DNA from: Halanaerobiaceae bacterium
GTDB lineage: Bacteria > Bacillota > Halanaerobiia > Halanaerobiales > Halarsenatibacteraceae
Assembly (NCBI GenBank): GCA_003553485.1
Contig: PWEJ01000020.1
Coordinates: 1-64,000, forward strand
DNA: 64,000 nt
Reading direction: 5' to 3'
Below the pieces are notes generated by a model that did not search any database, was not told the DNA's origin, and saw only the letters and a program-made list of their open reading frames with translations. The translations under genes and the position numbers were made by a program. Below, one piece after another: positions 33,293 through 44,472 of the stretch; the first letter of the stretch is position 1, and each line of letters starts with the position of its first letter.

Positions 33293-34408
33293 TTATATCA
33301 CCGAACCCTTTTCAATTATTAAAGGAAAAGCTGGATCCCCTCGCAACTCTTTACCTGGATTTATGCGCACATTCTTATCGATAATAACATTCTCCAAAAC
33401 AGCATTCTCTTTAACTTCAGATTTCTGCATGATGATAGAATTTTTCACCCTGGCCCCGTGGTGAATTTTTACTCCTCGGAAAAGAACAGAGCTTTCCACT
33501 TCTCCATCAATATAGCAGCCATTGGCTGCTAAAAGATTGTTAACCTTTGAATTAGTGGTGTATTTGGTGGCTGCTTCATCCTTGGGCTTGGTAAAGATTG
33601 GACCGATACCTTCAAAAAGATTATTAAAGATATCAGGTTGAAGCATTTCCATATTCCTGCGATAATATTCGCTCACTGAACCGGTGATAGCGATATAATC
33701 AAAGGCTGGGAAGGCCCTGACATCATAATGACTTAGATGAGAAGCTATGCCATTCTTTTCAAAATCCCATTGACCAGTGGATACACAATTATCGATTATC
33801 TCTAAAAGAATATCCTTTTTCATGATATATCTTTTCAGGGAGACCCGAGTTTCTTTGCGGGTATCAGGGTTAACTTTCATATCGAGAACTTTTTCTTCAC
33901 TATCAGTTTTAATAGTGGTGTAGTGAGAATCGCGGTGCATCGTTTCTAAATCTTTATAGATAACTGTTATATCTGCTCCAGTCTTAATGTGGTGATTGAA
34001 AGCCTTGCGATAGTTAAGGTTACAGACTATAAAAGGGTAGGCAACTATTACATACTCCTGGGTGGAGCGATGTAAGTAATCTAAATTAGTATAGAGATTT
34101 TCAATATCCCCTTTATAGATTTGATTATTGCCATAGATATGGGCTGGTGGTAAAAGGAAAAGACCGTCCTGTTTGGTATCTAAACCCCAGGCCTTTCCGG
34201 GACCGATATGGTCCAGCAGGGAGCGAAATCTGCTTTCCAGAAGGATACCTACATTTTTAATTCCCGAATTAACCATATTAGAAAGGGGAAAGTCTATCAA
34301 GCGATGTCTGGCTGCAATAGGGGTGGAAGCCAGAGAACGATGGGCCGTTATTTCTTTCAGTGAAATCCCCTGGGGATTGTTATTGATAATACCCATTACA
34401 TTATTCAT
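33293..34408 (-). CDS. glgD: Glucose-1-phosphate adenylyltransferase regulatory subunit GlgD
   Basis: A GlgC-like protein that, in Bacillota, pairs with GlgC and modulates ADP-glucose synthesis. It has the pyrophosphorylase fold ([20 protein letters not shown]) but lacks the AGGxGxRL nucleotide loop seen in GlgC, as GlgD proteins do, so it is unlikely to be catalytic on its own. The C-terminal left-handed beta-helix (VRNSIIMQKSEV-like repeats) is present. Start ATG 34408 follows AAAGGAGGT. It lies 24 bases downstream of glgC on the minus strand. Confidence 0.93.
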   Translation of the reverse strand: MNNVMGIINNNPQGISLKEITAHRSLASTPIAARHRLIDFPLSNMVNSGIKNVGILLESRFRSLLDHIGPGKAWGLDTKQDGLFLLPPAHIYGNNQIYKGDIENLYTNLDYLHRSTQEYVIVAYPFIVCNLNYRKAFNHHIKTGADITVIYKDLETMHRDSHYTTIKTDSEEKVLDMKVNPDTRKETRVSLKRYIMKKDILLEIIDNCVSTGQWDFEKNGIASHLSHYDVRAFPAFDYIAITGSVSEYYRRNMEMLQPDIFNNLFEGIGPIFTKPKDEAATKYTTNSKVNNLLAANGCYIDGEVESSVLFRGVKIHHGARVKNSIIMQKSEVKENAVLENVIIDKNVRINPGKELRGDPAFPLIIEKGSVI

Positions 34409-34432: not shown

Positions 34433-35611
34433 TTAACCGATGACAGACCCATGTTCAATAATTTTGCCGTTGGATATAGTTTCTCCTTCGCCGATTACTG
34501 TAATATCAAATTCCTGAGTTTCACCTACTCCAATACGGGCATTGTCTTTCACAATAGAATCCTGGCCCATGATGGTCTTGTTGACATAGGCGCCTTCTTC
34601 TATGGTGACATTTGGCATTATAACTGAATCCTTTATCACGGCCCCTTCTTCTATTTCGACGCCAAAGAAAATAACGGAATTTTCTACTTTGCCACAGATT
34701 TTAGTTCCCTTGTTAATCATGGAATGAGAAATAGTGGCCGTTCGGCTGACAAATTGAGGCGGGCGGTTGGGGTTGACACTGGAAATAACCCAGCTGCGGT
34801 CAAAAAGATTTAAACCTTTATTTTTTTCAGCCAAAAGATCCATATGGGTCTCCCAGTAACTCTTAATAGTTCCTACATCCTTCCAGTAGCCATCAAAGTT
34901 ATAGGCAAAGACCTTTCTTTGCTCGCCGAGCATGGCCGGGATTATATTTTTGCCAAAGTCATGGGCTGAATCTTCGTTCTGAGCATCACTTTCTAAATAA
35001 TCCTTTAATAAGGGCCAGTTGAAAATATATATTCCTAGAGAAGCTAAATTGCTCTTCGGTTCCTCGGGTTTTTCCTGAAACTCTTTAATCTGGCACTTGT
35101 CATCGGTATTCATAATTCCAAAACGATTGGTCTCCTCCCAGGGCACCTCCATGACGGCAATGCTAGCTTCAGCATTCCATTGTTTGTGCTGGGCTAACAT
35201 GCGGGAGTAATCCATTTTATAAATATGGTCCCCGGATAATACTAAAATATAATCAGGGTCGTAAAGGTCGATATAATTAATATTTTGGTAGATAGCATCG
35301 GCAGTCCCCTTATACCAGGAACCCCCGGTTTCTCGCAAATAGGGGGGTAAGACAGTGACCCCACCATCCCTGCGGTCTAAATCCCAGGAACTTCCATTGC
35401 CAATATAAGAATTGAGAACTAAAGGTTCATATTGGGTGAGAACACCCACCGTATCAATGCCTGAATTGGTACAATTACTCAAAGGAAAGTCAATTAGACG
35501 ATATTCTGCCCCGAATGGTACAGCTGGTTTGGCTATATTCTTCGTTAGCACTCCGAGGCGAGTTCCTTTGCCTCCGGCCAGCAACATAGCTACTATTTCT
35601 TTTTTAGACAT
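34433..35611 (-). CDS. glgC: Glucose-1-phosphate adenylyltransferase
   Basis: Makes ADP-glucose from ATP and glucose-1-phosphate, the first committed step of glycogen synthesis. The N-terminal [12 protein letters not shown] loop is followed by [20 protein letters not shown], then ADAIYQN and [10 protein letters not shown]. The GlgC beta-helix ends the protein. At 392 residues it is a standard Bacillus-type subunit. ATG 35611 follows AGGAGGGA. Part of glgB-glgC-glgD on the minus strand. Confidence 0.95.
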
Positions 35612-35704: not shown

Positions 35705-37591
35705 TTAAACAGGTTGCAAATAAAGAGCTGCTAATGGCGGCAGAGTTAGATTCAATGAATTGTTCCGCCCGTGGAACTCTTTATTTTCAGTAGAATAAAT
35801 TTTCTGTTCACAGTAACCGGAGCCCCCGTAGTCAGGAGCATCGCTATTTAATATTAGCTGATAATTTCCTGCTGCAGGAACGCCGATTCGATAATTATCG
35901 CGGGGCACAGGAGTGAAGTTTAAGACCACTATAAGATGATTGCCAGCAGAATCATAGCGGATATAACTCAAAATGCTCTGGCTGTAATCATTGGGTTCAA
36001 TCCAGCTAAAGCCCTTTTCCTGGTAATCAAGCTCCCAGAGGGCTGACTGAGCCAGATAAATTTCATTAAGATTGGCTGAATATTTTTGGAGCGCTTGATG
36101 TTTATCATATTCTAATAAAAACCAGTCCAACTCCTGCTTGTAATTCCACTCAATAAACTGACCAAATTCTCCACCCATAAAGAGCAGGTTTTTTCCTGGA
36201 TGAGCTACCATATGGGCTAATAGGAGTCTCAAGTTAGCAAATTTCTGCCAGTAATCACCAGGCATCTTATCTAACAGTGACTTTTTGCCATGGACTACTT
36301 CGTCATGAGAAAGAGGGAGAATAAAATTCTCTGAATAGGCATACATCAAGGAAAAAGTGAGCTTATTGTGTTCCCATTTGCGAAAAATGGGGTCTGATTC
36401 CATATATTCCAGCATATCATTCATCCAGCCCATATTCCACTTGAAGTTAAAGCCAAGTCCACCAACATAGGCAGGGCCGGTAACCTGAGGCCAGGAGGTG
36501 GATTCTTCTGCTATCATCATCGCCCCGGGATAATGCTCAAAGACTTCTTCATTCAATTTGCGGAGAAATTTTATAGCAGCAATATTTTCATTTCCCCCGT
36601 ATTCATTGGGAACCCATTCTCCATCTTCTTTGCCGTAATTAAGGTAGAGCATATTGCTTACAGCATCTGCTCTAATGCCATCTATATGATATTTGTCAAA
36701 CCAGAAAATAGCATTGGAGATCAGAAAACTCCAGACTTCAGACTGGTTAAAATCAAAGTTTAATGTATCCCACTGGGTATTTTCAGCCTTAAGGGGATCA
36801 GCACTTTCATATAATTCAGTACCATCAAATTTTCTTAAACCATGGTCATCCTTGCAAAAATGACTGGGCACCCAGTCTATTATAACCCCAATTCCGGCCT
36901 GATGGCATTTGTCCACCAGATACATAAAATCCTCCGGGGAACCATAGCGGCTGGTCACTGAATAATAGCCAGTGGTCTGATATCCCCAGGAGCCATCAAA
37001 GGGATGCTCAGCCACTGGAAGGAGTTCAATATGGGTATAATTCATCTCGGTTACATATTTAATCAATTTATTGGCCAATTGGCGATAGTTCAACCAATTT
37101 CCCTCGCTATCGCGTTTCCAGGAGCCTGGATGGACTTCATAAATGGAGATAGGTTGCTTGTAGATATTAGTCTGCCTTCTCTTCTTTAGCCAATCATTGT
37201 CCTGCCAGTTGTATTTATTGAGATCAGTGACGATAGAAGCAGTTTTTGGCTTTTTTTCACTATAAAAAGCATAGGGATCAGCCTTTACTCTGGTATAGTT
37301 CTGGGGACCTGTGAGGTAAAACTTGTATTTGTCTCCGACCCGGGCGCTATTAAGAAAAAGTGTCCATAGACCTGACTCCTTAATTCTTTCCATTTTATCT
37401 TGTTCCGGATTCCAATCGTTGAAATCACCTATTACACTAACTTCCCGGGCATTGGGGGCCCAGACTGTAAAACGAACCCCCTGGCTGCCCTGGTGATAAC
37501 CTGGATGAGCCCCCAGGAATTTATATGATTGAAAATGTCTTCCCTGGTGAAAAAGATACCGATCATAATTTGAAGGCAGATGAGCAGTCAT
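35705..37591 (-). CDS. glgB: 1,4-alpha-glucan branching enzyme
   Basis: GH13 enzyme introducing alpha-1,6 branches into glycogen. The CBM48-type module (VRFTVWAPNAREVSVIGDFN) opens the protein, then the GH13 core with HPFDGSWGYQTTGYYSVTSR, IDGIRADAVSNMLY (nucleophile Asp), MMIAEESTSWP (Glu) and LPLSHDEVVHG. At 628 residues it is the usual short form. ATG 37591 follows AGGAAGGAG. It precedes glgC and diverges from glgA. Confidence 0.95.
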   Translation of the reverse strand: MTAHLPSNYDRYLFHQGRHFQSYKFLGAHPGYHQGSQGVRFTVWAPNAREVSVIGDFNDWNPEQDKMERIKESGLWTLFLNSARVGDKYKFYLTGPQNYTRVKADPYAFYSEKKPKTASIVTDLNKYNWQDNDWLKKRRQTNIYKQPISIYEVHPGSWKRDSEGNWLNYRQLANKLIKYVTEMNYTHIELLPVAEHPFDGSWGYQTTGYYSVTSRYGSPEDFMYLVDKCHQAGIGVIIDWVPSHFCKDDHGLRKFDGTELYESADPLKAENTQWDTLNFDFNQSEVWSFLISNAIFWFDKYHIDGIRADAVSNMLYLNYGKEDGEWVPNEYGGNENIAAIKFLRKLNEEVFEHYPGAMMIAEESTSWPQVTGPAYVGGLGFNFKWNMGWMNDMLEYMESDPIFRKWEHNKLTFSLMYAYSENFILPLSHDEVVHGKKSLLDKMPGDYWQKFANLRLLLAHMVAHPGKNLLFMGGEFGQFIEWNYKQELDWFLLEYDKHQALQKYSANLNEIYLAQSALWELDYQEKGFSWIEPNDYSQSILSYIRYDSAGNHLIVVLNFTPVPRDNYRIGVPAAGNYQLILNSDAPDYGGSGYCEQKIYSTENKEFHGRNNSLNLTLPPLAALYLQPV

Positions 37592-37708
37592 AGCTGGAGC
37601 TCCTTCCTGAAAGAAAATTTCTCCTAAATTTAAATCTGTATTTATTATATTATTTCTTTATATATTGGGAAAAACCTGCAAGATGTATCGGGAAAAAGCT
37701 GCCGGGGT

Positions 37709-37737
37709 TTGACAGTCATCTTTTATTTTAATAAAAT
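37709..37737 (+). promoter_or_regulatory. Sigma-A promoter of glgA
   Basis: TTGACA (37709-37714), 17-base spacer, TAAAAT (37732-37737). The -35 is perfect and the -10 matches 5 of 6. It is 33 bases upstream of the glgA ATG. Confidence 0.8.
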
Positions 37738-37770
37738 TAACTTATCCTGTAGATATCTGGAGGTGCTGAT

Positions 37771-39429
37771 ATGTCAGCCCCAAAAATTTTATTTGTTAGT
37801 TCTGAAGCTGCTCCCTTTGTTAAATCAGGTGGTCTAGGTGATGTTGCTGGTTCTTTGCCAGCTGCTTTGAAAAAACAGGGTTTTGATGTGCGAGTTGTTC
37901 TGCCAGAGTACAGTCAAATACCCTTAAAATACCGCCGTCGTTTAGAACATTTAATTCATTTTAGGACCAATGTGGTCTGGCGCAATGAATATATTGGAGT
38001 AAATCGCTTAATCCACCAGGGAGTTCCTCATTATTTTATTGACAACAAGAAACACTTTTTTAGAGATTCTCTCTATGATAATCCTGACCGCCATGTACAA
38101 TTCACTCTGTTTGTAAGAGGTTTATTAGAGATGTTACCAAAAATAAATTTTCAGCCGGACATAATCCACTGTCATGACTGGCAGACAGCTCTGTTACCTG
38201 TGCTGTTAAAGGATAATTATAAAAAGTATGGTTTTTATCAGGATATAAAAACTATTTATACCATACACAACCTTAAATATCAGGGAGTCTTTGGTCCTGA
38301 GAGCATTGCTGATGTATTGGGGATTGATTATAGTTACTGGCATGATGGTAGCATCAGGCATGATGGACTAGTTAATTTCATGAAAGCCGGGATTATGCAT
38401 GCTGATAAAATAACCACTGTCAGTCAGACCTATGCTGAAGAGATTAAAACAGCGGAATATGGTGAAGGATTGGATTATGCTCTTAGGATGCGCGGTGATG
38501 ACTTAACCGGGATTATCAATGGCATAAGTTATCAGGATTTTAATCCAGCCACTGATAGTGAGGTCTATGCTAATTTTGCTGCCCCTGACCTGATAGGTAA
38601 AAGGGAAAATAAATCAAAATTACAGGAAACTTTAGGTTTACCTGTAGACCCTGATAAAAACATGCTGGCAATAATCACTAGATTGGTTGAGCAGAAGGGC
38701 CTGGATTTAATTCAATATGCAGCAGAGGATATTTTGGCTACTGATATGCAATTTGTTTTGCTGGGTACTGGAGAGGAGAAATATGAAAATTTCTTCCGTT
38801 ACTTGGCCAGCAAGCACCCTGAACAGGTGGCGGTAGAAATAAAATATGACTTTGAACTGGCCAAAAAGATTTATGCCGGGGCAGACTTCTTTTTAATGCC
38901 CTCTAATTTTGAGCCCTGTGGCTTGGGACAATTGATATCCATGCGCTACGGCACAGTGCCGATAGTGAGAGAGACTGGAGGATTAAAAGATACGGTGACG
39001 GACTATGCCAGGGATCAGGGCAATGGTTTTACCTTTAAAGATTATAATGGAGAGGCCTTAATCGAAGCTGTGAAAAGAGCAGCTGCCTTAGGTGAAGATA
39101 AAGAAAAACTTGCGGAATTACAACAGAAAATAATGAAGCTGGATTATAGCTGGAATAATTCGGCTCGCAAATATGAGGAATTATATAAAGACATACTGGG
39201 TAAAACCAAAAAGCATAAACCAAAAGAGAAAAAGGGTAGATATGACCTGAATAAGGCCAGCAAGGAAGAATTGACTGAGATCAAGGGTATTGGTGAAAGT
39301 TATGCCGAAAACATTCTGCAATATCGTCGAGAAAACAATGGTTTTGCGGATTTAAAGGAACTCAAAGAGGTCAAGGGAATTGGTGAGAGCCGCTTTAAAA
39401 AATTGCAGGATGAATTTTATCTTTCTTAG
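37771..39429 (+). CDS. glgA: Glycogen synthase with C-terminal helix-hairpin-helix domain
   Basis: GT5 enzyme elongating glycogen from ADP-glucose. Residues 1 to about 480 are ordinary GlgA: KSGGLGDVAGSLP near residue 17, HDWQTALLP, the phosphate-binding VEQKGLD, and PSNFEPCGLGQLISMRYGT. Beyond this the frame continues, without a stop, through a basic linker (KTKKHKPKEKKG) to about 62 extra residues, with LNKASKEELTEIKGIGESYA and ELKEVKGIGESRFKKL, a tandem ComEA-like helix-hairpin-helix module, usually a DNA-binding fold. GlgA is normally about 477-490 residues; this is 552. No internal ribosome site suggests a separate protein. ATG follows TGGAGGTG. Confidence 0.93.
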   Translation: MSAPKILFVSSEAAPFVKSGGLGDVAGSLPAALKKQGFDVRVVLPEYSQIPLKYRRRLEHLIHFRTNVVWRNEYIGVNRLIHQGVPHYFIDNKKHFFRDSLYDNPDRHVQFTLFVRGLLEMLPKINFQPDIIHCHDWQTALLPVLLKDNYKKYGFYQDIKTIYTIHNLKYQGVFGPESIADVLGIDYSYWHDGSIRHDGLVNFMKAGIMHADKITTVSQTYAEEIKTAEYGEGLDYALRMRGDDLTGIINGISYQDFNPATDSEVYANFAAPDLIGKRENKSKLQETLGLPVDPDKNMLAIITRLVEQKGLDLIQYAAEDILATDMQFVLLGTGEEKYENFFRYLASKHPEQVAVEIKYDFELAKKIYAGADFFLMPSNFEPCGLGQLISMRYGTVPIVRETGGLKDTVTDYARDQGNGFTFKDYNGEALIEAVKRAAALGEDKEKLAELQQKIMKLDYSWNNSARKYEELYKDILGKTKKHKPKEKKGRYDLNKASKEELTEIKGIGESYAENILQYRRENNGFADLKELKEVKGIGESRFKKLQDEFYLS

Positions 39430-43304: not shown

Positions 43305-43664
43305 ATGAGTGAGTATCATGAACCGTTAGAGTCATTGTCTCAGGAAGCAATTGAATACCATAGAATTATTAAGAGTGTAATTGAAGAATTAGAGGCTGTC
43401 GACTGGTATAATCAAAGAGCTGAAGCCACTGAAGATGAGCAGGTCCGTAAAATTGTTGCTCATAATAGGGATGAAGAAATTGAACATGCCTGCATGGGAT
43501 TGGAATGGCTAAGGAGAAATAGCGAAACCTGGGATGAGATGTTAAGAGAATTTCTCTTCACCGAGGCCGAGATTACCTCGATAGAGGATGAGGAAGAAGA
43601 GGAAAATGATGATTCAGCTAGCAACAGTTCCTTAGGAATAGGCAGTTTAAAGGAGGGGAAATAA
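43305..43664 (+). CDS. Encapsulated ferritin-like cargo protein
   Basis: A 119-residue EncFtn-type protein, a two-helix ferritin relative that forms a ferroxidase only after dimerising, and that loads into encapsulin shells. The helices hold EELEAVDWYNQRAE and HNRDEEIEHACMGLEWLRR, the latter with the E-x-x-H metal pair (about E58 and H61). An acidic, low-complexity linker (EDEEEEENDD) leads to the C-terminal tail LGIGSLKEGK, which fits the encapsulin cargo-loading peptide (L-x-x-G-S-L). ATG follows AAGGAGGGA. It is 1 base before the shell gene, so iron storage or detoxification is expected. Confidence 0.93.
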   Translation: MSEYHEPLESLSQEAIEYHRIIKSVIEELEAVDWYNQRAEATEDEQVRKIVAHNRDEEIEHACMGLEWLRRNSETWDEMLREFLFTEAEITSIEDEEEEENDDSASNSSLGIGSLKEGK

Positions 43665-43665
43665 A

Positions 43666-44472
43666 ATGGTAGATATACTCAATAGAGATTTAGCTCCTTT
43701 TCCCGGTGAAACCTGGGAGTTTTTAGATGAGGAAGCAAAAGAAGTTTTAAATATGAGATTAAATGCCAGAAAGGTAGTTAATTTTGTTGGCCCTTCTGGT
43801 TTAGAGACCGCTGCTGTTAATACTGGCCGGGGAGAAGAAATATCCAGCAATATTGCCGGAGCAGATATGTGTCAGCGCTCCTCTTTAAACCTGGTAGAGG
43901 TTGAAGTTCCCATCAAAGTAGAACGTTCAGAATTAGCAGCCTTTGCTCGAGGAGCAGAAGATGCTGATGCCGATGCTGTGAGAGAAGCTGCTGAGCTGGC
44001 TGCAGAAATAGAAAATAAAGCAGTATTTTTCGGGCTGCCAGAGGCAGATATTACTGGAATTATTCCAGCAGCTAAAGAAGAACATGACCCGGTGGAAATA
44101 CCGACAGATAATTCTTCTTCTTTTTATTCTGCTATTTTTAACGCCAAAGAAAAGCTCTTTAAAGAAGGGGTAACAGAGCCTTATTATTTACTGCTAGGCG
44201 AGAAGCACTATAATCTAATGAATGACTTAGAGTCAGCCTGTTATCCACTCTTCAAAAAGATAGAACAACTTTTAGGGACAGAATTAATTTTCGTTCCCGA
44301 GCTTGAAGATAATAGTGTGTTGCTGGCAGCAGGAGATGATTTTGAATTATTCGTCGGTCAGGATATTTCTTTAGGATATAATGGCCATGACAAGGAAGAG
44401 GTCGAATTATTCCTTTTCCAAAGCTTCACCTTTAAAGTCAATGCCCCTGAAGCGGCCATTGTCTTTGAATAA
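43666..44472 (+). CDS. Encapsulin shell protein
   Basis: A 268-residue family 1 encapsulin (HK97-fold, Linocin_M18). It begins with NRDLAPFPGETWEFLDEEA, then the cargo-binding N-terminal helix region and ARKVVNFVGPSGLETAAVNTGR. Other landmarks are CQRSSLNLVEVEVPI, and the end DKEEVELFLFQSFTFKVNAPEA. Many copies self-assemble into a protein shell of tens of nanometres. It is preceded by AAAGGAGGGG inside the cargo gene's end. A strong terminator follows, making a complete two-gene iron-storage cassette. Confidence 0.95.
   Translation: MVDILNRDLAPFPGETWEFLDEEAKEVLNMRLNARKVVNFVGPSGLETAAVNTGRGEEISSNIAGADMCQRSSLNLVEVEVPIKVERSELAAFARGAEDADADAVREAAELAAEIENKAVFFGLPEADITGIIPAAKEEHDPVEIPTDNSSSFYSAIFNAKEKLFKEGVTEPYYLLLGEKHYNLMNDLESACYPLFKKIEQLLGTELIFVPELEDNSVLLAAGDDFELFVGQDISLGYNGHDKEEVELFLFQSFTFKVNAPEAAIVFE

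Follow-up and report, generated by a model that had tools for sequence, protein, structure and literature searches.

Why would a glycogen synthase end in a domain of the DNA-binding type? The question is raised by a stretch of 64 000 nucleotides from a Halanaerobiaceae bacterium, here called the window, in which the synthase gene glgA runs in frame into a ComEA-type helix-hairpin-helix (HhH) domain. The first-pass annotation had described such a tail as unexpected on a glycogen enzyme and had proposed that it either tethers the enzyme or has become a protein-interaction domain.

A glycogen synthase with an HhH tail

The fused gene is a complete open reading frame of 552 codons (positions 37771–39429, + strand), supported by Pfam and NCBIfam matches. 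Its catalytic core occupies residues 1–472 (37771–39186, +), with family models reaching residue 476; the NCBIfam equivalog model of GlgA (NF001898) covers residues 5–476 with 644.8 bits for a cutoff of 603. The GT5 active-site motifs KSGGLGDV (residue 18) and EPCGL (residue 381) are intact and, judged from its sequence, the core is a complete and catalytically ordinary ADP-glucose glycogen synthase. The protein thus shares with other bacterial GlgAs of family GT5 a complete core above the equivalog cutoff and a glg cluster, but differs from them by 80 residues past the core. These consist of a 16-residue linker, KDILGKTKKHKPKEKK (residues 473–488; 39187–39234, +), which is basic as first described (net charge +6), and of 64 residues forming the ComEA-type (HhH)2 domain (residues 489–552; 39235–39426, +).

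The gene context is that of ordinary glycogen synthesis, since glgA is divergent from a glgB-glgC-glgD group. The branching enzyme gene glgB (35705–37591, −; CBM_48, Alpha-amylase and Alpha-amylase_C domains) is separated from glgA by an intergenic region at 37592–37770, an arrangement also found in several relatives. The ADP-glucose pyrophosphorylase gene glgC (34433–35611, −; NTP_transferase, E = 7.9e-68) adjoins glgD, which encodes a GlgC-like second subunit (33293–34408, −; NTP_transferase and Hexapep_GlmU), in the window as in relatives. About 4 kb downstream of glgA, the window also holds an encapsulin shell gene (PF04454) preceded by a gene for an encapsulated ferritin (PF22277; the pair at 43305–44472, +), and a ferritin/encapsulin-like gene pair likewise lies 3′ of glgA in two other genomes (G005 and G009).

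In the tail, the HHH_3 model (PF12836) matches residues 492–548 with E = 2.7e-19 in a search with the whole protein and 7.1e-21 with the tail alone. Two HhH motifs with GxG hairpins span this match, which identifies the domain as ComEA-type. The first contains GIGESYA (39247–39324, +; PF00633 on residues 493–518) and has a tyrosine at the position of ComEA Lys166; the second contains GIGESRF (39337–39417, +; boundaries set by eye from alignments). The duplicated KGIGES that had drawn attention to the tail is present at residues 505 and 535 (nucleotides 39283 and 39373), but this exact duplication is peculiar to the window protein, the class consensus being GIGPAYA followed by GIGKKKY. The closest solved sequence relatives are ComEA proteins of the same HHH_3 fold (8dfk, 8dss and 2duy): 8dfk is matched by the window tail with E = 1.2e-9 and by a profile built from 22 GlgA-HhH domains with E = 3e-22. 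The structure prediction that had been suggested as a check was uninformative in its direct form, since an AlphaFold2 model of the tail alone from a single sequence is of low confidence (pLDDT 66.8). An HhH fold is nevertheless predicted by strong homology to solved HhH structures and by the confident model of a sister protein described below.

The relationship to ComEA does not extend to architecture. ComEA is membrane-anchored and carries an SLBB/oligomerisation domain, whereas GlgA-HhH begins with the GlgA core, shows neither the anchor nor such a domain in Pfam scans and places the HhH on a cytoplasmic enzyme. A role in DNA uptake was rejected for such an enzyme, which has no secretion or membrane segment. 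Among the HHH_3 matches of the window genome (97.7% complete), there is no canonical SLBB-HhH ComEA.

Distribution, selection and history of the fusion

The GlgA core served as query against 59 genomes of the class, and 45 proved GlgA-positive at E ≤ 1e-60. In the comparison with relatives that the first-pass annotation had called for, reading of the frames revealed a GlgA-linker-HhH fusion in 31 of the 45, distributed over six families (6 genomes in f1, 14 in f3, 1 in f5, 5 in f6, 3 in f8 and 2 in f11). One of them is the complete genome of Halothermothrix orenii (PMC2626281). Found again and again, in 31 genomes belonging to six families, the fusion is due neither to chance nor to misassembly, and the suspicion of an assembly or annotation artefact, for instance a frameshift joining two genes, has been dispelled: no point was found in its support, the frame is uninterrupted in all 31 independent genomes, and the probability left to it is practically nil. 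The fusion is absent from the other 14 GlgA-positive genomes; in Halanaerobacter jeridensis, GlgA is unfused.

The phylum at large was surveyed through 398 evenly sampled genomes, 216 of which have a GlgA at E ≤ 1e-100. Of about 130 GlgA frames listed outside the class, 18 of the longest were fetched, and none of these carries an HhH tail, L054 being only partly covered; one long frame (G108) and about 60 weaker matches lie outside this check. Among the genomes searched, a linker and HhH on GlgA are found only in this class. The tail is as unexpected on a glycogen enzyme as it had first seemed.

Within the class, the three parts of the protein evolve differently. Pooled over eight close pairs, dN/dS is lowest for the core (0.043) and highest for the linker (0.388); the HhH domain, at 0.118, is under purifying selection. 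The linkers of relatives range from 8 to 137 amino acids and are hypervariable to the point of being barely alignable, while the hairpin glycines of the HhH are nearly invariant across the class. The tail thus consists of an HhH held under constraint and of a linker that is free to vary in length and sequence. In the linkers of Halanaerobium (L016–L029, residues ~495–510), a short conserved motif, IKVYxPE/D, stands out from otherwise hypervariable sequence and is possibly a docking motif.

In the GlgA tree, all fused proteins fall into one class-specific clade of 46 rows (100/100), and at least seven changes between the fused and unfused states are required. The best HhH tree scatters the GlgA domains, but their grouping in a single clade is statistically acceptable (AU p = 0.161). 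A single origin of GlgA-HhH could not be retained from this tree, since its 63 columns lack resolution, and hence the data allow either an ancestral fusion followed by losses or several separate gains.

The same domain on other glycogen-linked proteins

The window genome encodes only four full HHH_3 domains, found in Tex, in a lipoprotein-like protein, in GlgA and in a 154-residue protein on contig 60 (G000:C60:34747-35208), designated HhH-CBM48. The HhH of the latter shares 54% identity with the one on GlgA in the same genome, and its other half matches the carbohydrate-binding module CBM48 (PF02922) with 24.0 bits for a cutoff of 22.4, a match that falls short of the cutoff or is missing in two relatives tested. 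Ten genomes of the class have homologues, and the 398 phylum genomes yielded none outside it; in a scan of about 85 000 species, full-length relatives were found only in Halanaerobiales-type records. In a model based on five sequences, the HhH has a pLDDT of 84–91 and superposes on ComEA 8dss at 0.8 Å, and the weaker beta domain finds the CBM20 of STBD1, CBM25 and the CBM48 of GlgB among its matches. Trp100, Lys130, Trp138 and Asn150 are invariant in nine sequences, and are putative equivalents of the glycogen-binding Trp100, Lys126, Trp133 and Asn150 of AMPK-beta. HhH-CBM48 is considered a putative glucan-binding adaptor. It resembles STBD1, the mammalian glycogen tether, in combining a starch-binding-type module with an anchoring-type segment, with a weak fold match (E = 1.2e-2) that ranks among the top hits of the CBM half; STBD1 anchors to membranes, whereas for the HhH module DNA would be the anchoring point. 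The HhH-CBM48 genes are mostly remote from glg genes. A CBM48-only paralogue (G000:C20:69627-69872) lies in a proC/aminotransferase neighbourhood where two other genomes (G001 and G003) have HhH-CBM48; at this orthologous site, an HhH has been either gained or lost.

A third partner of the HhH is DUF4912. Proteins of about 300 residues with the architecture HhH-DUF4912 occur in four f11 genomes (G057 L130, G056 L136, G058 L137 and G052 L222), and one genome (G049:C62, L032) encodes a triple fusion, GlgA-HhH-DUF4912, of 782 residues. Plain DUF4912 genes adjoin glgA and/or a gene for a GH57-type branching enzyme in 12 loci, and in f11 genomes DUF4912 is directly downstream of glgA. The triple fusion keeps this gene order and therefore hints at a way in which the HhH may have been transferred. 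DUF4912, for which neither a PDB relative nor functional literature was found, is presumed to be a glucan-linked module. One f11 genome also encodes a dynamin-like GTPase of 464 residues with two C-terminal HhH domains (G058:C26, L125).

The occurrence of the same HhH type on GlgA, CBM48 and DUF4912 proteins is a new finding. At least one HhH-glycogen architecture is present in 39 of the 45 GlgA-positive genomes. The commonest state, seen in 25 genomes, is GlgA-HhH without HhH-CBM48 or HhH-DUF4912, while in eight genomes one or other adaptor accompanies an unfused GlgA. Each state being found without the other, GlgA-HhH and the adaptors are not obligate partners, and an obligate pair of GlgA-HhH and HhH-CBM48 in particular was ruled out by this distribution. 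The fusion is also dispensable, considering the 14 GlgA-positive genomes without it and the six that lack any HhH-glycogen architecture. A test of whether fused GlgA and the separate adaptors are complementary gives raw Fisher p values of 0.017–0.049, but the signal vanishes once phylogeny is controlled (median p 0.6) and is not counted as evidence.

What the tail may hold

Several features of the tail suit contact with DNA. The GlgA-HhH domains have a mean net charge of +5.0, compared with +0.1 for the HhH of ComEA proteins of the class and −6.2 for secreted MBL-HhH; they sit on an acidic enzyme, the GlgA core bearing −2 to −3 per 100 residues, and this contrast supports a tether. Both GIG hairpins are retained, position 196 is Lys or Arg in 26 of the 31 domains, and the second hairpin is more basic than in ComEA. 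Other features do not fit. Lys166 of Gs ComEA (Lys164 in Bs) is essential, its mutation abolishing DNA binding (PMC9747964). This position is Lys or Arg in 12 of 16 ComEA compared, but of the 31 GlgA-HhH domains 22 have Tyr, 5 Leu and 4 Phe. The HhH of the window protein has in itself a net charge of −1, with positive charge solely in the linker, and the domains of three other genomes (G005, G007 and G049) are likewise net negative. DNA binding by GlgA-HhH, if it occurs, would therefore differ from that of ComEA and lean on the second hairpin and the linker. A high-salt cytoplasm, if present in these species, would weaken electrostatic binding.

Precedents for a tether come from other storage granules. 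PhaM, PhaF and PhaH position polyhydroxybutyrate (PHB) granules along the nucleoid, each of them attaching to the granule at one end and, non-specifically, to DNA at the other; in PhaH of Caulobacter crescentus, the DNA-binding end is an HhH domain (PMC13052382). In these proteins, as in the polyphosphate tether AlgP, a storage-granule protein has a separate DNA-binding end, and GlgA-HhH would be comparable if it binds DNA; measured against such an end, its C-terminal HhH fold and basic charge fit, but the loss of Lys166 does not. The differences are that the store would be glycogen instead of PHB and that the polymerising enzyme itself carries the module. Pfam scans of GlgA and HhH-CBM48 detect no phasin domain, so that GlgA-HhH does not belong to the PhaM/PhaF/PhaH families and would at most work alike. 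As to the store, glycogen is what GlgA works on, and in E. coli GlgA-GFP colocalises with it (PMC4836754). A need for a tether can be seen in an E. coli csrA mutant, where untethered glycogen accumulates at the old pole, the chromosome is excluded and the replicative lifespan is shortened (PMC4836754). PHB and polyphosphate granules are known to be nucleoid-tied; a 2025 review of bacterial compartment positioning does not mention glycogen (PMC13052382).

On this basis, it is proposed, with even chances of being right, that the HhH is a non-specific DNA grip by which the synthase, along with nascent glycogen, is tethered to the nucleoid. GlgA would stay on the chain under extension, and the HhH on its flexible linker would hold the enzyme and the growing granule to the nucleoid. 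Glycogen would thereby be spread and inherited with the chromosome, each daughter cell receiving some; DNA binding, granule attachment and this effect on inheritance are all inferred. HhH-CBM48 and HhH-DUF4912 may be separate adaptors doing the same job through a glucan-binding or presumed glucan-linked module. Because relatives keep the HhH on several different glycogen proteins, a tie of the store to the chromosome is probable. Its extension to the whole class, namely that an HhH grip in at least four arrangements segregates glycogen with the chromosome, is a more tentative idea, with the odds slightly against it.

The main competitor, rather unlikely in our estimation, is that the HhH is a protein-interaction module docking GlgA to another HhH, to the branching enzyme or to a scaffold within a glycogen-making complex, DNA being uninvolved. 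HhH folds mediate protein contacts in PsbU and XPF-ERCC1, both XPF and PsbU turn up as distant matches, and the replacement of the DNA-binding lysine, mostly by an aromatic residue, in all 31 domains is expected of a repurposed surface. The retention of basic charge and of both hairpins is harder to explain in that way, and no co-varying partner appears in the joint distribution. As none of the architectures depends on the presence of another, whatever they share as a partner should be found in every cell, which fits DNA and not a dedicated HhH partner. Of the two roles first proposed for the tail, tethering is thus better supported, because the HhH also occurs on HhH-CBM48 and HhH-DUF4912 and because any one of these proteins can be present without the rest; it is weakened by the loss of Lys166, the negative HhH of the window protein, the dispensability of the fusion and the remoteness of HhH-CBM48 from glg genes.

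Less probable still is that the tail has a different polyanion as its ligand or affects GlgA itself, with RNA, a phosphorylated glucan, or stability or oligomerisation at high salt or heat as candidates. A basic, flexible and dispensable tail with Lys/Glu-rich linkers, specific to lineages of halophiles and thermohalophiles, would agree with this, but a structural brace would hardly diverge as freely as the linker does, and the HhH on CBM48 and DUF4912 proteins without GlgA is left unexplained. As to a neutral or decaying domain, gained by chance from a neighbouring HhH gene and now without function, the patchy distribution with its at least seven gains or losses is compatible with it; purifying selection, the nearly invariant glycines and the recurrent joining of HhH to glycogen-linked proteins make it very improbable.

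In the literature open without subscription, searches found no paper on a glycogen synthase with an HhH tail, on a ComEA-type HhH with a carbohydrate-binding module or on a nucleoid tether for bacterial glycogen. The available part of a 2024 review of prokaryotic alpha-glucan enzymes makes no mention of helix-hairpin, nor does the H. orenii genome paper (PMC2626281) mention glycogen. If the tethering proposal is true, glycogen would have its first nucleoid tether in GlgA-HhH, which would also be the first tether with its DNA-binding domain on the polymerising enzyme itself. A DNA grip built into the synthase would answer the problem of polar glycogen in a simple way, DUF4912 would gain its first functional lead, and glycogen positioning would become directly testable by moving one 64-residue domain.
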